DNA of 61,138 nt from Bacteroidetes bacterium GWF2_33_38 (GTDB lineage: Bacteria; Bacteroidota; Bacteroidia; Bacteroidales; GWF2-33-38): contig MEOF01000058.1 of assembly GCA_001769505.1 (NCBI GenBank), forward strand, positions 1-61,138. The letters run 5' to 3'. Each line of letters opens with the position of its first letter. The first letter of the stretch is position 1. The notes below the pieces were generated by a model. It made no database searches and was not told where the DNA came from. It saw nothing but the letters and a program-made list of their open reading frames with translations. This document shows positions 3,877 to 61,138 of the stretch, piece after piece. The position numbers and the translations under genes were made by a program.

Positions 3877-4874
3877 TGAATAAACAAATATTAACAGTTT
3901 CGCCGTCTCCACACGTTTATGGAAAAGAATCCGTAAAAAGTATAATGTATGGAGTTATCATAGCGATGATACCAGCCTTTGCTGTATCACTATTTTATTT
4001 CGGATTGAGTGCTCTTTTTGTAACATTAGTAGCCGTTATTTCTTGCATAGCTTTTGAGTGGTTAATTCAAAAATTTATACTCAAAAATGAACCTTCAATT
4101 TCAGATGGTTCAGCAATTATCACAGGAATGTTACTAGCTTTTAATGTTCCGAGTAATCTTCCTATATGGATGATTGTAGTAGGAAGTCTAGTGGCAATTG
4201 GTGTTGCTAAAATGTCGTTTGGTGGTTTAGGAAACAACCCTTTTAATCCTGCTTTGGTTGGTCGTGTATTTTTACTGATTTCATTTCCAGTTGACATGAC
4301 AAGTTGGCCAAAACCAAGTGTATTAAATATGAATTTGGTAGATGTGCAAACTGGAGCAACGCCTTTAGCTGTTATTAAAGAAGGAGTAAAAAATGGTCAA
4401 CAAGTTTCGGATTTATTGAACACCCTTCCATCGTACTTTGAAATGTTTATTGGAAATATTGGAGGCTCGTTAGGAGAAGTTTCAGCAATAGCATTGATTA
4501 TAGGAGGAATTTATCTATTGATAAAAAAAATAATCACTTGGCATATTCCGGTTTCAATGTTAGGAACTATGGTTATATTTTCGGGAATATTGTATTTGGT
4601 AAATCCTGATTTGTACGTTGATCCACTATTTCACCTTCTAACAGGAGGGGCATTGCTAGGTGCAATTTTTATGGCAACTGATATGGTAACATCTCCTATG
4701 CATCCTATGTCGATGATTATTTTTGGAGTAGGTATAGGCCTACTAACAATTTTAATTAGAGTATTCGGAGCATATCCAGAAGGGGTATCATTTGCAATTT
4801 TAATTATGAATGCATTTGTTCCTTTGTTGAATAAAATTAAACCAAAACGTTTTGGGGAAACGAAGAAGGTATAA
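3876..4874 (+). CDS. rnfD: Rnf electron transport complex subunit D
   Basis: 332 residues with about eight to nine membrane helices, of the NqrB/RnfD family. The covalent-FMN region is visible as TGATPL near residues 159-164, with the acceptor Thr at about T162. It forms part of the ion-translocating membrane core. Overlaps rnfC by one base. The stop codon lies inside a short tandem repeat that continues into the unusually wide 115-base gap before rnfG. Confidence 0.95.
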   Translation: MNKQILTVSPSPHVYGKESVKSIMYGVIIAMIPAFAVSLFYFGLSALFVTLVAVISCIAFEWLIQKFILKNEPSISDGSAIITGMLLAFNVPSNLPIWMIVVGSLVAIGVAKMSFGGLGNNPFNPALVGRVFLLISFPVDMTSWPKPSVLNMNLVDVQTGATPLAVIKEGVKNGQQVSDLLNTLPSYFEMFIGNIGGSLGEVSAIALIIGGIYLLIKKIITWHIPVSMLGTMVIFSGILYLVNPDLYVDPLFHLLTGGALLGAIFMATDMVTSPMHPMSMIIFGVGIGLLTILIRVFGAYPEGVSFAILIMNAFVPLLNKIKPKRFGETKKV

Positions 4875-6158: not shown

Positions 6159-6731
6159 ATGGAATACATAATTATAATTATATCGGCAATATTTGTAAAC
6201 AACATAGTTTTAGCTCAATTTTTGGGAATTTGTCCATTTTTGGGTGTTTCAAACAAAGTTGGAACTGCAATTGGAATGACCGCAGCAGTTACTTTCGTGA
6301 TAATTCTTGCTACCATTGTAACATATTTGGCTCAAAAATACATTTTAGATGTTTTTGGAATTCAATATATGCAAACGGTAACTTTTATTTTGGTAATTGC
6401 AGCTTTAGTTCAAATGGTTGAAATTATTTTGAAAAAAGTTAGTCCCCCACTTTATCAAGCTTTGGGAATTTATTTACCATTGATAACAACAAATTGTGCA
6501 GTTTTAGGCGTTGCAATTTTAACTATTCAAAAAGATTACAATTTGTTAGAAGGCGTTGTTTATGGAACTTCAATTTCGCTTGGATTTGGTTTTGCATTGG
6601 TAATTTTTGCAGGAATTCGTGAACAAATGGATTTAGTGAAAATACCAAAAGGAATGCAAGGAATTCCAATTGCATTGGTAACTGCTGGAATTTTAGCTTT
6701 AGCTTTTATGGGATTTGCGGGGTTGGTTTAA
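6159..6731 (+). CDS. rnfA: Rnf electron transport complex subunit A
   Basis: 190 residues, six membrane helices, NqrE/RnfA family. The Cys-containing segment LGICPFLG near residue 25 matches the conserved Cys of the membrane Fe-S site shared with RnfE. Twelve bases after rnfE and the last gene of the operon; the next gene is convergent, with 17 bases between stops and no clear hairpin terminator. Confidence 0.95.
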   Translation: MEYIIIIISAIFVNNIVLAQFLGICPFLGVSNKVGTAIGMTAAVTFVIILATIVTYLAQKYILDVFGIQYMQTVTFILVIAALVQMVEIILKKVSPPLYQALGIYLPLITTNCAVLGVAILTIQKDYNLLEGVVYGTSISLGFGFALVIFAGIREQMDLVKIPKGMQGIPIALVTAGILALAFMGFAGLV

Positions 6732-40403: not shown

Positions 40404-40479
40404 TTATCCAATAGTATTAAATAATTAATAAAATTGAATAAGAGAAACTTAAAACGGTATTGGGATAAATTTAGATTCC

Positions 40480-40551
40480 GAATTTCCTACGCGGGTATTA
40501 ACCCGTTCAGGTTCCAAGGATTTTATCTCAGCCTTTTAGGCACTCCTATTC
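40480..40551 (-). promoter_or_regulatory. TPP riboswitch (THI element)
   Basis: Minus-strand reading gives the conserved parts in order: GGAGTGCC, CTGAGA, then ACCTGAACGGGTTAATACC and GCGTAGGAA, with closing GAAT/ATTC arms of P1. This is the TPP-binding core. It lies in the leader of the TonB receptor gene (start 40403), 76 bases before its ATG; the mode of control (transcription or translation) cannot be told, since no clear terminator follows. Confidence 0.93.
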
Positions 40552-40562
40552 GTTAACAAGGA

Positions 40563-47004: not shown

Positions 47005-48913
47005 AATTTTGTACGTTGATGACGAAAAATCTAATTTAATTGGGTTTAAACATTTATTTCAAGATGAATACGAAATCTTTTTAGCAGAATCAGCTAAAGA
47101 GGGAAAGAAAATTTTGGAAGACAATAAAAATATCGAAGTAGTCATTTCCGATCAACGTATGCCCGAACAAAATGGACTTGAATTTTTAGAAGAGATTTTA
47201 GAAGATAATCCCGATACAATTCGAATTATCCTTACAGGATATAGCGATTTTGACGTTATTATCAACGCAATTAACAAAGTTAAGATTCATGGCTTTTTCT
47301 GTAAACCAATCAACGAAATCGAAATGAAATTGTCGATTAATACAGCCATTGAAAGTATTGAGTTGAAACGACAAATTGCAAAAAGCGAACGTCGTTTTAG
47401 AAATACGTTTGGTCAAGCAGCGGTTGGTATTGCTCACTTTTCGACAAATCTTGAGTTTGTAAATTTGAATCATAAACTTGCCGAAATTTTAAATTTTCAG
47501 TTCGACGAAATTCTCAATACCAATATCGAAAAATATATTTATCCTGACGATATTTTGAAAACAATAAATTTCTTTAGCGATTTTACCGAAGGTGTGCCAT
47601 TGCAAAATGTCGAAGAAATTAGAATAATAACGAAAGATAAATCGGTAGTTTGGTGCACCGTAACTCTTGCTCTTGTTGCCGATTCTATAGATGAAAACGA
47701 ATATTTTATTGCTGTATTTCAAGATATTTCGATGCGTAAAAAGGCTGAGAAAGATTTGATTGAAGCCAAAAAGAAAGCAGAAGAAAGCGATAAACTAAAA
47801 ACAGCATTCTTAGCAAACATGAGTCACGAAATTCGTACTCCTATGAATGGAATTATAGGTTTTGCAAATTTACTTGGCGACGAAAGCGAAAGTTTCGAAA
47901 AACGAAAAGAGTATATTGCCTACGTAAACTCTAGTGCAAACCAATTGTTAACCATTATTTCCGATATCGTTGATATTTCTAAAATAGAGGCTGGTTTAGT
48001 TCAAGTTACTAAAGAAAATTTTGATTTAAATAAACTTTTCGACGAATTGTATCATCAATTTGCCGATAACTTGGCTTACAATAGTAATCTAAATTTGAAC
48101 GTAATTAAATATTTCGCTGACGATGATGCAATGATTAATCACGATTTAGTTAGAATCAAGCAAGTAATAGCAAATCTTTTAAGCAATGCATTAAAATATA
48201 CAGATAAAGGAACTGTTGATTTTGGATACGAACTACTCGACAACGACTATTTATTGTTTTATGTAAAAGATACTGGTCACGGAATATCTGAAGACGATTT
48301 TGATATTATTTTTGATAGATTTCGCCAAGGTAGTAATGATAAAAAGCGAGGAACTGGTTTGGGCTTAGCAATTTCAAAAGAATTAGTTACGCTAATGGGA
48401 GGCAAAATTTGGGTTAAATCTCAAATGAATAAAGGTTCCGAATTTTATTTTACAGTTCCATTCGAAAAAATTCAAAAACAACAAAATGTTCACGTTGAAG
48501 AGCAAAAAGACAATAAAAAACGCTACAATTGGAGCAAACGTAAAATCCTTATTGTTGATGATGAAGAGTTGATTCATTATTTTTTCAACGAAATATTTAA
48601 AGATACTGATGCTAAATTATTATTTGCATCGGATGGGAGCGAAGCCGTTAAAATTTGTCAGGATAACCCCGATATTGATGTTGTGTTAATGGATATTCAA
48701 TTGCCTAATTTGAATGGTTATGAAGCATTGGCAAAAATCAGGAGTTTATACCCAAATCTAATTGTAATTGCTCAAACAGCTTACGCAATGTCTGAAGATA
48801 GAGAAAAGGCAATGAAAGCTGGATTCAACGACTACGTATCGAAACCGGTAAACAAAAATGAAATTAAGCAAATTATTGAGTTCTTCTTTTTTAAGAAAAA
48901 TTTGATGATGTAA
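46994..48913 (+). CDS. REC-PAS-HisKA-HATPase-REC hybrid kinase
   Basis: 639 residues, soluble. REC1 (about 3-120; VISDQRMPEQNGLEF, D53, of the RpfG/HD-type signature), PAS domain (about 135-255), HisKA (NMSHEIRTPMNGII, H278), ATPase (about 385-495) and REC2 (about 515-635; VVLMDIQLPNLNGYEA, D567). It overlaps the previous gene by 11 bases. With its neighbours the operon carries three His and four Asp relay sites but no DNA-binding or c-di-GMP output, so the final effector must lie elsewhere. Confidence 0.93.
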   Translation: MKPKILYVDDEKSNLIGFKHLFQDEYEIFLAESAKEGKKILEDNKNIEVVISDQRMPEQNGLEFLEEILEDNPDTIRIILTGYSDFDVIINAINKVKIHGFFCKPINEIEMKLSINTAIESIELKRQIAKSERRFRNTFGQAAVGIAHFSTNLEFVNLNHKLAEILNFQFDEILNTNIEKYIYPDDILKTINFFSDFTEGVPLQNVEEIRIITKDKSVVWCTVTLALVADSIDENEYFIAVFQDISMRKKAEKDLIEAKKKAEESDKLKTAFLANMSHEIRTPMNGIIGFANLLGDESESFEKRKEYIAYVNSSANQLLTIISDIVDISKIEAGLVQVTKENFDLNKLFDELYHQFADNLAYNSNLNLNVIKYFADDDAMINHDLVRIKQVIANLLSNALKYTDKGTVDFGYELLDNDYLLFYVKDTGHGISEDDFDIIFDRFRQGSNDKKRGTGLGLAISKELVTLMGGKIWVKSQMNKGSEFYFTVPFEKIQKQQNVHVEEQKDNKKRYNWSKRKILIVDDEELIHYFFNEIFKDTDAKLLFASDGSEAVKICQDNPDIDVVLMDIQLPNLNGYEALAKIRSLYPNLIVIAQTAYAMSEDREKAMKAGFNDYVSKPVNKNEIKQIIEFFFFKKNLMM

Positions 48914-58272: not shown

Positions 58273-59946
58273 CTAGAATTTATCGAACTCGCTATCTTTT
58301 GTGTCTGATAATTGTAAACTTATCCCATCGTGTTTAAACGATTTTTTGAGTCCTTCGTGTGAAAAATGACTTTGCTTTTTTAACGATGAACTTTTGGTGG
58401 TTGTTGAAGCCATAGCTCGTTTTCGTGAATTTCCTTCTTCAATTTTGAAAAACGAAATAATTTCAGTCAATTGTTGTGCTTGCCCCGATAATTCTTCTGC
58501 CGTTGTTGCCATTTCTTCAGCTGCGGCTGCATTTTCTTGTGTAATTTGATTTAATTGTTGAATCGCTTTATTCACTTGATTTGAACCCGAACTCATTTCC
58601 ATACTTGCGGCTGTAATTTCTTGAACCAATTTTGAAGTATTTTGAATATTTGGAACAACTCCAGCCAATAATCTTCCAGATTTTTCAGCAATTTCAACAC
58701 TTGAACCAGTAATTTGAACAATTTCACTTGCAGCAACTTGACTTCGTTCGGCTAATTTTCTAACTTCGGCAGCAACAACAGCAAAACCACGTCCGTGTTC
58801 GCCAGCACGAGCCGCTTCAACAGCAGCGTTCAATGCTAAAATATTTGTTTGGAAAGCAATATCAGTAATAATAGAAATTTTACCAGCAATTTGTTTCATT
58901 GCATCAACGGTTTGATTTACCGCAACACTACTTTCTTGAATTTCTGAAGCTGCTTGTTGCGAAATTTTTTCAGTTTGTTGAGCATTATCGGTATTTTGTT
59001 GAATATTTGAACTCATTTCTTCCATCGAACTCGAAACTTCTTCAATTGATGATGCTTGGTTATTTGCTCCTTGTGATAATGATTGTGTATTTGAACTCAT
59101 TTGTTCGGATGCCGATGAAATATTTTCGGCTCCATAAACAACCGAATGCACAATTTCTTTCAATTTTTCGGTCATATTTTCAACATTTTTATACACGCCA
59201 ACTTTTTTGTTTGAATTATACGTTATTGTTAAATCGCCGCCAGAAACTCTTTCTAAAATCAATGCAATTTCTGATGGTTCTGCTCCAAGAATATTAAAAA
59301 TATCTTTCACAAGATAAACTGCTAAGAAAATTGAAAATATTGCTGCAATTAAACTAATTAAAATTGACATAAAATTTGTGGTTTCCGCTTTTGAAAGCAT
59401 CACGTCATTTGTCATTATGTGTTCTTGAGATTCTGATACAATATTCATTAAATCAATACCAACTTCGTTTAAATGAATAATAGTTTCAGTTTTATACACT
59501 TTTTGTATTTCTATCACTTTTTCAGCAGAATCGAGCGAATTATTGTGTGCAATAGTTTCGATTTTTTCAGCGGTTTCGTGCATTTTTATATGTGGAGTTT
59601 CAATTTTTTCAAAAGTTTCTTTTAATTGCGGAACTAATTCTTCTGCTTTGGTTCTTTCTTCTCCATAATACCATTTGCCAAAAGCACAGTTGTGAGCATC
59701 TTTTTCAATATCAAGTTCATCTTTTAATGGATCTAAAATATGTTCGCCAAGTTTTACCGACCATTTTAAGTGGTCAATATATTTTTGATTTATTTCTGCT
59801 CTGAGTTTATTTCCATCAATCACTTCTTCAGCATTTTCTACAATACTATTGATTCTGGTTACAATCCAAAATGAAGATATTATTGAAATCCCAATTATTA
59901 AGCTAAATGCAATAATAAATTTTGATGATAATTTTAAGTTTTTCAT
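58273..59946 (-). CDS. Methyl-accepting chemotaxis protein with periplasmic CZB domain
   Basis: 557 residues. TM1 (about 10-30); between the two membrane segments a CZB zinc-binding domain with ligand set H59, C87 (CAFGKWYYG), H119 and H123; TM2 (about 190-212); HAMP (213-265); signalling domain (about 270-500) with the hairpin tip [37 protein letters not shown]. The tail SEFDKF may tether CheR/CheB. CZB domains in MCPs often bind zinc to sense zinc or chlorine oxidants; a periplasmic position is unusual compared with soluble CZB receptors. Thirty-nine bases after cheW. Confidence 0.93.
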
Positions 59947-60607: not shown

Positions 60608-60615
60608 CAAATGTA
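60608..60615 (-). promoter_or_regulatory. Candidate -7 box TACATTTG before cheW
   Basis: On the minus strand TACATTTG fully matches TAnnTTTG, downstream of the structured element and about 140 bases before the cheW ATG. Confidence 0.4.
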
Positions 60616-60672: not shown

Positions 60673-60788
60673 AAAAAAAGCGTGGAACTAAACTTTATCT
60701 GTGCTTGAGGCTCTGGTAAGCCTTGTAATACAAATACGTATAGCCCACGCCGTGACGTGAGCATCTACATTTTATTCTTTGTATTACA
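60673..60788 (-). ncRNA. Putative structured RNA or switch upstream of cheW
   Basis: On the minus strand, in 5' to 3' order: A (TGTAATACAAA, 60788-60778), B (GCGTGG, 60750-60745), A' (TTTGTATTACA, 60734-60724), a small AGGCT/AGCCT hairpin (60723-60708), B' (CCACGC, 60685-60680), then seven T (60679-60673). A pairs fully with A' (11 bp) and B with B' (6 bp plus G-U pairs). The order A-B-A'-B' forms either a pseudoknot or two exclusive folds, of which B-B' plus the T-run is a terminator. Preceded by its own upstream terminator. I recognise no Rfam class with certainty; a 6S-type RNA is an alternative. Confidence 0.5.
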
Positions 60789-60794
60789 CCAATG

Positions 60795-60832
60795 AAAAAA
60801 AAGGTTCAATACCTATATGTTGGTATTAAACC
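60795..60832 (-). terminator. Terminator of the second MCP gene
   Basis: On the minus strand GGTTTAATACC (60832-60822) pairs with GGTATTGAACC (60813-60803), then eight T. Thirty bases after the stop. Confidence 0.8.
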
Positions 60833-60862
60833 CCTTAACTAATTAAACCTCAAAAAAACTAA

Positions 60863-61138
60863 CTAAAATTTATCGAACTCGCTATCTTTTGTGTCTGATA
60901 ATTGTAAACTTATTCCATCGTGTTTGAATGACTTTTTGAGTCCTTCGTGTGAAAAATGGCTTTGCTTTTTAGACGATGTACTTTTGGTGCTTGATGAAGC
61001 CATAGCTCGTTTTCGTGAATTTCCTCCTTCAATTTTAAAGAACGAAATCGTTTCGGTAAGTTGTTGTGCTTGGCTAGCAAGCTCTTCCGATGTTGTTGCC
61101 ATTTCTTCCGAAGCCGAAGCATTTTCTTGTGTTACTTG
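60863..61138 (-). CDS. Second MCP, 3' part only (cut by window end)
   Basis: The last 91 residues of a receptor; the frame is open through the window end at 61138. Begins (in view) QVTQENASASEEMATTSEELAS and ends DSEFDKF. It is nearly identical to the C-terminus of the MCP at 58273-59946, and the identity continues into the 3' flank (about 20 bases beyond the stop). Its sensor part is not visible. Confidence 0.92.
   Translation of the reverse strand, partial: QVTQENASASEEMATTSEELASQAQQLTETISFFKIEGGNSRKRAMASSSTKSTSSKKQSHFSHEGLKKSFKHDGISLQLSDTKDSEFDKF

Follow-up and report, generated by a model that had tools for sequence, protein, structure and literature searches.

Members of the Bacteroidota are dominant in many gut, soil and water communities, and to our knowledge regulation at the RNA level is less catalogued in them than in model bacteria. 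The locus considered here raises the question of whether a short intergenic stretch upstream of cheW encodes such a regulatory RNA and, if so, what it regulates. The window, by which we mean the whole 61,138-nucleotide stretch of contig MEOF01000058.1 from Bacteroidetes bacterium GWF2_33_38 that was analysed, carries this stretch on its minus strand between the terminator of an MCP gene and cheW. The first-pass annotation had seen there two pairs of complementary arms, A-A' and B-B', interleaved and followed by seven T, and had read them as a pseudoknot or a terminator-antiterminator switch of the kind expected in a cis-acting riboswitch or a free noncoding RNA, of a class that it could not name.

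Both arm pairs and the T-run are present exactly as described, and the observation is confirmed. TGTAATACAAA and TTTGTATTACA form 11 perfect pairs, and GCGTGG (60750-60745) pairs with CCACGC (60685-60680), directly followed by seven T at 60679-60673; these are the sole perfect Watson-Crick helices of at least six pairs in the 118-nt stretch. The interleaved 11+6 arrangement arose in none of 2,000 dinucleotide shuffles of the stretch and a helix of at least 11 pairs in one of them. Interleaved 6+6 helices turned up in 286 of the shuffles, and the short helix by itself is therefore not convincing. RNA folding of the stretch against shuffles gave z scores of -3.06 for the minus strand and -1.71 for the plus strand. 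Beyond the annotated B', GCGTGG has a second, nearer partner in GCTCACGTC (60762-60754, minus strand). An ARAGORN scan of the window was negative for tRNA and tmRNA. The parts of the element, named as in the family to which it belongs, and its immediate surroundings are as follows.

60799-60836, minus strand: terminator-like hairpin of the upstream MCP gene, adjoining the point of truncation
60673-60788, minus strand: 5'-truncated leader RNA copy, the convincing part of a covariance-model match at 60674-60817
60788-60778, minus strand: 5' arm of helix P4 (strand A), TGTAATACAAA, pairing with TTTGTATTACA
60754-60762, minus strand: 5' arm of hairpin P5, GCTCACGTC, from folding and family covariation
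60743-60751, minus strand: 3' arm of hairpin P5, GGCGTGGGC, which includes strand B (60750-60745), common to P5 and B-B'
60734-60724, minus strand: 3' arm of helix P4 (strand A'), TTTGTATTACA, pairing with TGTAATACAAA
60709-60722, minus strand: local stem L2 (GGCT/AGCC) around the P3 3' strand TTACCAG, whose 5' partner is absent in the window
60700-60708, minus strand: 3' arm of helix P2, TCAAGCACA, whose 5' partner is absent in the window, P2 appearing as non-pairs in the model alignment
60680-60687, minus strand: strand B', TTCCACGC, the terminal arm of the B-B' helix, from family covariation and shuffles
60673-60679, minus strand: T-run immediately 3' of B', a terminator-like tail, from the sequence and the family T-run count
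60608-60615, minus strand: TACATTTG, between the element and cheW, a putative -7 promoter box (Bacteroidota type) of cheW

The stretch proved to be a 5'-truncated copy of an RNA family of about 160 nt that has full copies elsewhere in the same genome. When the stretch and its flanks were used to query this genome (3.9 Mb in 70 contigs), three other element-like places came up, plus a match to an MCP tail (L005), and a search with one of the three found a fourth full copy. Covariance model R1, built from these four full copies, recovered them together with a diverged fifth copy (L040, contig C57) and the window copy; the sole other match up to E = 10, among 150 of 3,644 candidates scored, was the antisense of a true copy. 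Besides the window copy, the genome thus has four clear copies and one that has diverged. The full copies fold as one long imperfect hairpin (z of -7.1 to -8.2 for the three folded) and differ in their helix sequences while retaining the pairing. A second model, R2, matched the window copy with 76.2 bits (E = 1.1e-14). It also gave very weak hits in the window at 47415-47514 (plus strand, E = 0.1) and 6370-6456 (plus strand, E = 0.87), probably by chance, and returned nothing from 3 kb of Escherichia coli.

The family is widespread in the phylum. R1 matched 73 of 198 sampled relatives. In a phylum-wide sample of 392 genomes R2 had matches in 68, of which 19 belong to other classes; both counts include the genome of the window. 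Some genomes carry at least 14 R1 matches, copy numbers being lower bounds with at most 14 candidates scored per genome in the set of 198 and at most seven in the set of 392. A search with a DNA pattern returned at least 115 stretches; the 80 listed carry titles naming Bacteroidota (Flavobacterium, Bacteroidales, Pedobacter, Mesonia, Rikenella and others) or uncultured bacteria. A phage or virus element was set aside, one DNA pattern being unmatched in viral contigs and one Flavobacteria-type copy unmatched as a query in phages. The same query had one match among plasmids, at 4009-4168 of locus L306, from plasmid pB3-10 of Rhizosphaericola mali, 63 nt upstream of a hypothetical gene. Two copies (L283 and L069) have an apical P5 loop larger by roughly 40 nt. 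That a structured leader family exists is, in our judgement, very nearly certain.

Conservation of the structure was assessed on two alignments. A5 has 99 rows, drawn from the 129 rows of alignments A3 and A4 by removing 12 near-duplicates and then six loci (the window copy L009, together with L069, L080, L092, L119 and L123). Most of its rows L071 to L150 came from the 80 listed of the at least 115 pattern stretches, and because the pattern fixes part of P5 and B, change there is understated. A7 combines 40 hand-picked earlier loci with 60 selected from places listed in the survey of 392 genomes with R2. A5 was fitted to R1, which contains P2 to P5 and a closing helix Z, and A7 to R2, which contains P2 to P5, so that counts for those helices lean their way; B-B' and two further pairings, A1-A2 and D', are in neither model.

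The first-pass annotation had staked its proposal on compensatory base changes in homologues, and these are plentiful. Changes on both sides were seen in all 23 pairs of P2, P3 and P4 on A5, and apart from the outermost P2 pair (82.6% paired) these helices were 97.5, 99.0 and 98.4% paired, respectively. P3 changed on both sides at seven of seven pairs on A7, with one wobble cell in 700; five wobble cells occur on A5. For P5 both-side changes were found in eight of eight pairs (97.7% paired) on A7 and in seven of nine (96.4%) on A5. P2 to P5 are thus established by sequence comparison, and their retention by compensatory change is what is expected of a cis-regulatory leader. Flanking P3 are L1 (GAAA/UUUC), 90.9% paired, and L2 (GGY/RCC), 95.3% paired over three pairs with a fourth pair (paired in 76 of 99 rows) excluded; with the fourth pair, L2 is 81.0% paired on A5. 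The complementarity of these flanks suggests, less firmly than the helices themselves, that P3 may form by the kissing of two small hairpins. The both-side pair number of H1, L1 and L2 together on A5 was reached by 76 of 500 shuffles. Stem cells held 310 G-U against 26 A-C combinations, an excess that marks an RNA of this strand and that a double-stranded or opposite-strand function would not yield.

The B-B' helix is likewise kept through compensatory change. On A7 it is 92.2% paired with both-side changes in six of seven pairs; none of 500 shuffles reached its paired percentage or covariation score, and 29 reached its both-side pair number. On A5, the first and pattern-enriched alignment, both-side changes were found in only two of the seven pairs. 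A run of at least four T follows B' in 89 of 100 copies, whereas 40 nt further on only 18 of the 100 have one, and the stem with its T-run is a putative terminator in those 89. Strand B is common to P5 and B-B', so the two pairings exclude each other, and both are conserved, the arrangement by which riboswitches and attenuators are recognised; B-B' and P4 can occur in one molecule only as a pseudoknot.

An alignment-free test of 100 copies asked, over 2,000 permutations, whether each strand pairs more stably with its own partner than with those of other copies, kinship among copies remaining in the controls. None of the permutations equalled the own-partner energy for B-B' (-18.93 versus -14.02 kcal/mol), P5 (-17.30 versus -13.86), A1-A2 (-8.31 versus -7.19) or D', the pairing of the B' region with the 70 nt downstream (-10.78 versus -9.24 kcal/mol). 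Control pairings were no better than permutations (A2-B', 568 of 2,000; A1-B, 862 of 2,000). In 20 copies from other classes, B-B', P5 and A1-A2 hold (0 of 2,000 each), and D' was not significant (221 of 2,000). In these classes the three strands have been replaced wholesale, and in several copies they still match, as do GGGUGUUCC and GGAACACCC in L249. A1-A2 and D' are less firm than B-B'. In the set of 80 Bacteroidia copies, A1-A2 was equalled by five of 2,000 permutations; on fixed columns it is 83.0% paired with three of six pairs changed on both sides, a number reached by 353 of 500 shuffles. Helix Z, which joins the 5' end to the terminal strand and is the picture given by single-sequence folds, is a weaker candidate for a third alternative pairing. 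It was equalled in 19 of 2,000 permutations for all 100 copies, 8 for other classes and 1,255 for Bacteroidia, and its both-side changes in eight of eight pairs (88.1% paired) were counted on A5, which was fitted to a model containing Z.

The position of the element was surveyed at 159 loci, A5 and A7 together, with ATG open reading frames of at least 90 amino acids in place of gene calls. Among 134 Bacteroidia copies with enough flank, 106 carry 20 to 110 nt upstream a TANNTTTG box, which we take to be the Bacteroidota -7 element; mononucleotide shuffling gave a mean of 9.8 and a maximum of 18. The nearest downstream reading frame lies on the same strand at 138 loci, on the opposite strand at 7 and is lacking at 14, and the nearest upstream one on the same strand at 63, on the opposite at 83 and lacking at 13. 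Of the 138 co-oriented frames (median distance, 104.5 nt), 124 begin no more than 400 nt away and 83 of these no more than 150 nt, and a reading frame overlaps the element at 4 of the 159 loci. The family, though not the window copy, which has no upstream box, is thereby firmly placed between a promoter and a co-oriented gene, as a cis-regulatory leader would be. Of the two kinds of RNA first suggested, the cis-acting one is borne out, and the free noncoding RNA is the less likely given that 138 of 145 nearest downstream frames are co-oriented.

The downstream genes are diverse. Pfam searches of the proteins of the 124 co-oriented frames starting within 400 nt, cut to 380 amino acids so that C-terminal domains are undercounted, found TonB plug domains in 26, CarbopepD_reg_2 in 25, Por_Secre_tail in 6 and three sigma-70 domains in 3 each, the rest being scattered over what are 144 families in all. 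A crude rule, applied without a control, assigned signal peptides to 97 of the 124. Read by eye, the translations show many Flavobacterium copies preceding genes for SusC-like receptors, and Bacteroidales copies preceding lipoproteins, secreted repeat proteins, WD40 proteins, BspA-like proteins and proteins without assignment. These genes share no pathway, and their diversity suggests no ligand. At Flavobacterium-type loci (such as L076, L122, L145 and L270) a recurring stretch around CTTAGCA and TCGCA lies between the U-run and the gene; as seen by eye, its TCGCA is complementary to, and could pair with, a TGCGA close to where the transcript begins. In one genome (G080; L285 to L297), 8 of the 13 copies shown carry a near-identical D' block around TTTGGGACTTGGGCAAAG, between the T-run and the start codon, and these precede unrelated genes.

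We lean towards reading the family as a cis-acting 5'-leader RNA of Bacteroidota that probably acts as a two-state transcription switch, with B-B' as the putative terminator and P5 as the antiterminator. Transcription would start upstream, at the promoter boxes that begin 20 to 110 nt before the element, and the RNA would form a constant rod of P2, the core with P3 (seven pairs, almost no wobble) and P4. In the core, the GAAA/UUUC and GGY/RCC flanks of P3 would let two small hairpins kiss, and this core would sense a trigger. In a read-through state, B would pair with the P5 5' arm, leaving B' free, and RNA polymerase would proceed into the gene, after which the downstream D' sequence could trap B' in many Bacteroidia copies. 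In a stop state, B would pair with B', the U-run would follow and transcription would end; the P5 5' arm (A2), freed by this, may then find a partner in the 5' end (A1). The second covarying partner of strand B strengthens the switch that had been proposed; termination itself, the direction of control and the existence of a ligand or protein are what we infer. The stem energies add up to -18.0 for P5 with H1 and, if the pseudoknot and loops are not penalised, to -27.3 for B-B' with A. Pseudoknot-free folding strongly favoured the rod (median -60.3; the segment running from B to the end by itself, -32.1). The B-B' pairing must therefore arise cotranscriptionally or as a pseudoknot, and its loop of about 60 nt is unlike that of ordinary intrinsic terminators.

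Other explanations draw on parts of the same evidence. The interleaving of B-B' with P4, both conserved, would also suit a static pseudoknot of P4 and B-B', with A1-A2, acting on translation or mRNA stability through a bound protein or ribosome, in which the U-run would belong to the fold and not be a terminator; the pairing of sequence 3' of the U-run with the B' region in Bacteroidia and the median of 104.5 nt to the 138 co-oriented frames would fit such a leader. One fixed fold, however, leaves unexplained why P5 covaries as strongly as B-B' on the same strand, and the T-run stands directly after B' in 89 of 100 copies, and we regard a static pseudoknot as unlikely. The terminal T-run, the family's own promoter box and the multiple copies in many genomes are also what would be displayed by small RNAs transcribed and terminated as separate units, upstream of genes with promoters of their own. 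Small-RNA genes, however, need no layout in which 138 of 145 downstream frames are co-oriented and 83 of 138 lie within 150 nt, and D' extends the unit past the U-run in Bacteroidia; we consider this explanation improbable. The least credible to us is a mobile or repeat DNA element, a MITE-like palindrome acting as folded single-stranded DNA. Its many copies, the nearly symmetric hairpin with its weak antisense matches, the several copies close to contig ends and the plasmid copy speak for it, whereas the G-U excess on this strand, the constant orientation of promoter and gene and the pattern and query unmatched in viral contigs and phages speak against it, and we give it very little credence.

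The two-state switch that we favour probably does not extend to the window copy itself, which we take as most likely a 5'-truncated, inactive relic: its 5' third is missing, no promoter box stands upstream of it, and the cheW loci searched in six relatives have no significant copy. It aligns convincingly from P4 onward only, without the 5' arms of P2 and P3, and the MCP terminator occupies the place expected for the 5' end of the element and those arms. No TANNTTTG box was found between this terminator and the element. Its D' pairing is weak (-5.3 kcal/mol, versus -10.8, -12.9 and -13.0 in three full copies). An ordinary terminator of the MCP gene was set aside as an identity for the stretch, that terminator being the separate hairpin upstream. 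The idea that the stretch regulates cheW is not supported, nor did the comparison of homologous cheW upstream regions that had been recommended uncover a conserved leader: among nine loci searched with R2 (L215, L216 to L221, L224 and L005), the window locus L215 alone gave a significant match, and the cheW loci of the six relatives (L216 to L221) had no significant copy, one of them (L220) giving a hit at E = 0.75. A cheW paralogue of the same genome (L224) gave weak hits on both strands (E = 0.036 and 0.19).

The element appears to have been cut by recombination among MCP genes; at L005 (contig C67 of the same genome), a related MCP 3' end and terminator occur with the element absent. Around cheW, MCP genes at 60863-61138 and 58273-59946 (minus strand) have nearly the same C-terminal tails, and L005 holds a third such tail with its terminator. 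The window contig ends inside the first of these genes, as recombining repeats would predict. The genome has five cheW-like genes, that of the window included, at 67 to 100% identity to the window cheW.

The first-pass annotation could name no known class, and a search with all 4,227 Rfam 15 families, 6S and Flavo-1 among them, as it had advised, agrees. At gathering score the only match in the window was a TPP riboswitch (RF00059) elsewhere, at 40467-40557 on the minus strand (77.8 bits). In the element region five hits up to E = 10 all fell far under their gathering scores, and at 14 loci holding copies four hits up to E = 1 included none over an element. A known Rfam 15 class was therefore set aside, there being no covariance-model match to the element in the window, the element region or the copy loci. 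Likeness to an integron attC site, a retron or an omega-RNA was considered as well and set aside, the Rfam search being the test applied. Cyclic di-GMP was the ligand considered first, as the family is a multicopy switch before diverse genes. Of the 198 relatives, 6 have GGDEF domains (5 of them scoring above the cut-off) and 4 of these 6 have the element; none was found in the genome of the window, so this ligand is unlikely. We recognised no description of the family in the open PMC literature, which leaves aside paywalled articles, preprints and supplements such as the 3,161 candidates of PMC8040213 and Table S7 of PMC9723704. Novelty of the family is accordingly probable rather than proven. 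PMC9723704 reports in one of its passages structured 5' regions without Rfam hits in Flavobacterium psychrophilum.

A broader proposition, which we put forward tentatively and think slightly more apt to be wrong than right, is that these RNAs form a phylum-wide, multicopy switch class, built on a kissing-hairpin core and terminating through a strand-exchange pseudoknot, in which one shared signal would control many kinds of surface and secreted proteins; such a class would be a global riboswitch or a protein-sensing leader with at least 14 copies in some genomes. If true, a multicopy leader before TonB-dependent receptors, secreted proteins, sigma factors and many unassigned genes would define a shared regulon. 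The two-state pairing is directly testable with reporters and offers an entry to an orphan-riboswitch ligand search.

Among structured RNAs of Bacteroidetes, Table 1 of PMC2864571 lists Flavo-1 (RF01705), Bacteroidales-1 (RF01693) and 6S-flavo (RF01685), none of which matched the window stretch (E up to 10) or the 14 copy loci (E up to 1). Flavo-1 hits are described in a passage of PMC9723704 as lying indistinctly sense or antisense of transcripts, whereas the orientation of the present family is fixed. The c-di-GMP riboswitch classes resemble the family in having several copies per genome before diverse, often envelope, genes; they differ in that the family has no Rfam match and GGDEF domains are rare where the element is common. 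With attenuating leaders such as TPP, preQ1 and T-box, the family has in common its place in a 5' leader, a conserved structured core and exclusive pairings through one common strand with a U-run after one of them. It is set apart from them by its want of an Rfam 15 match, by downstream genes without a common pathway and by a terminator-like stem that encloses about 60 nt and is interleaved with P4.
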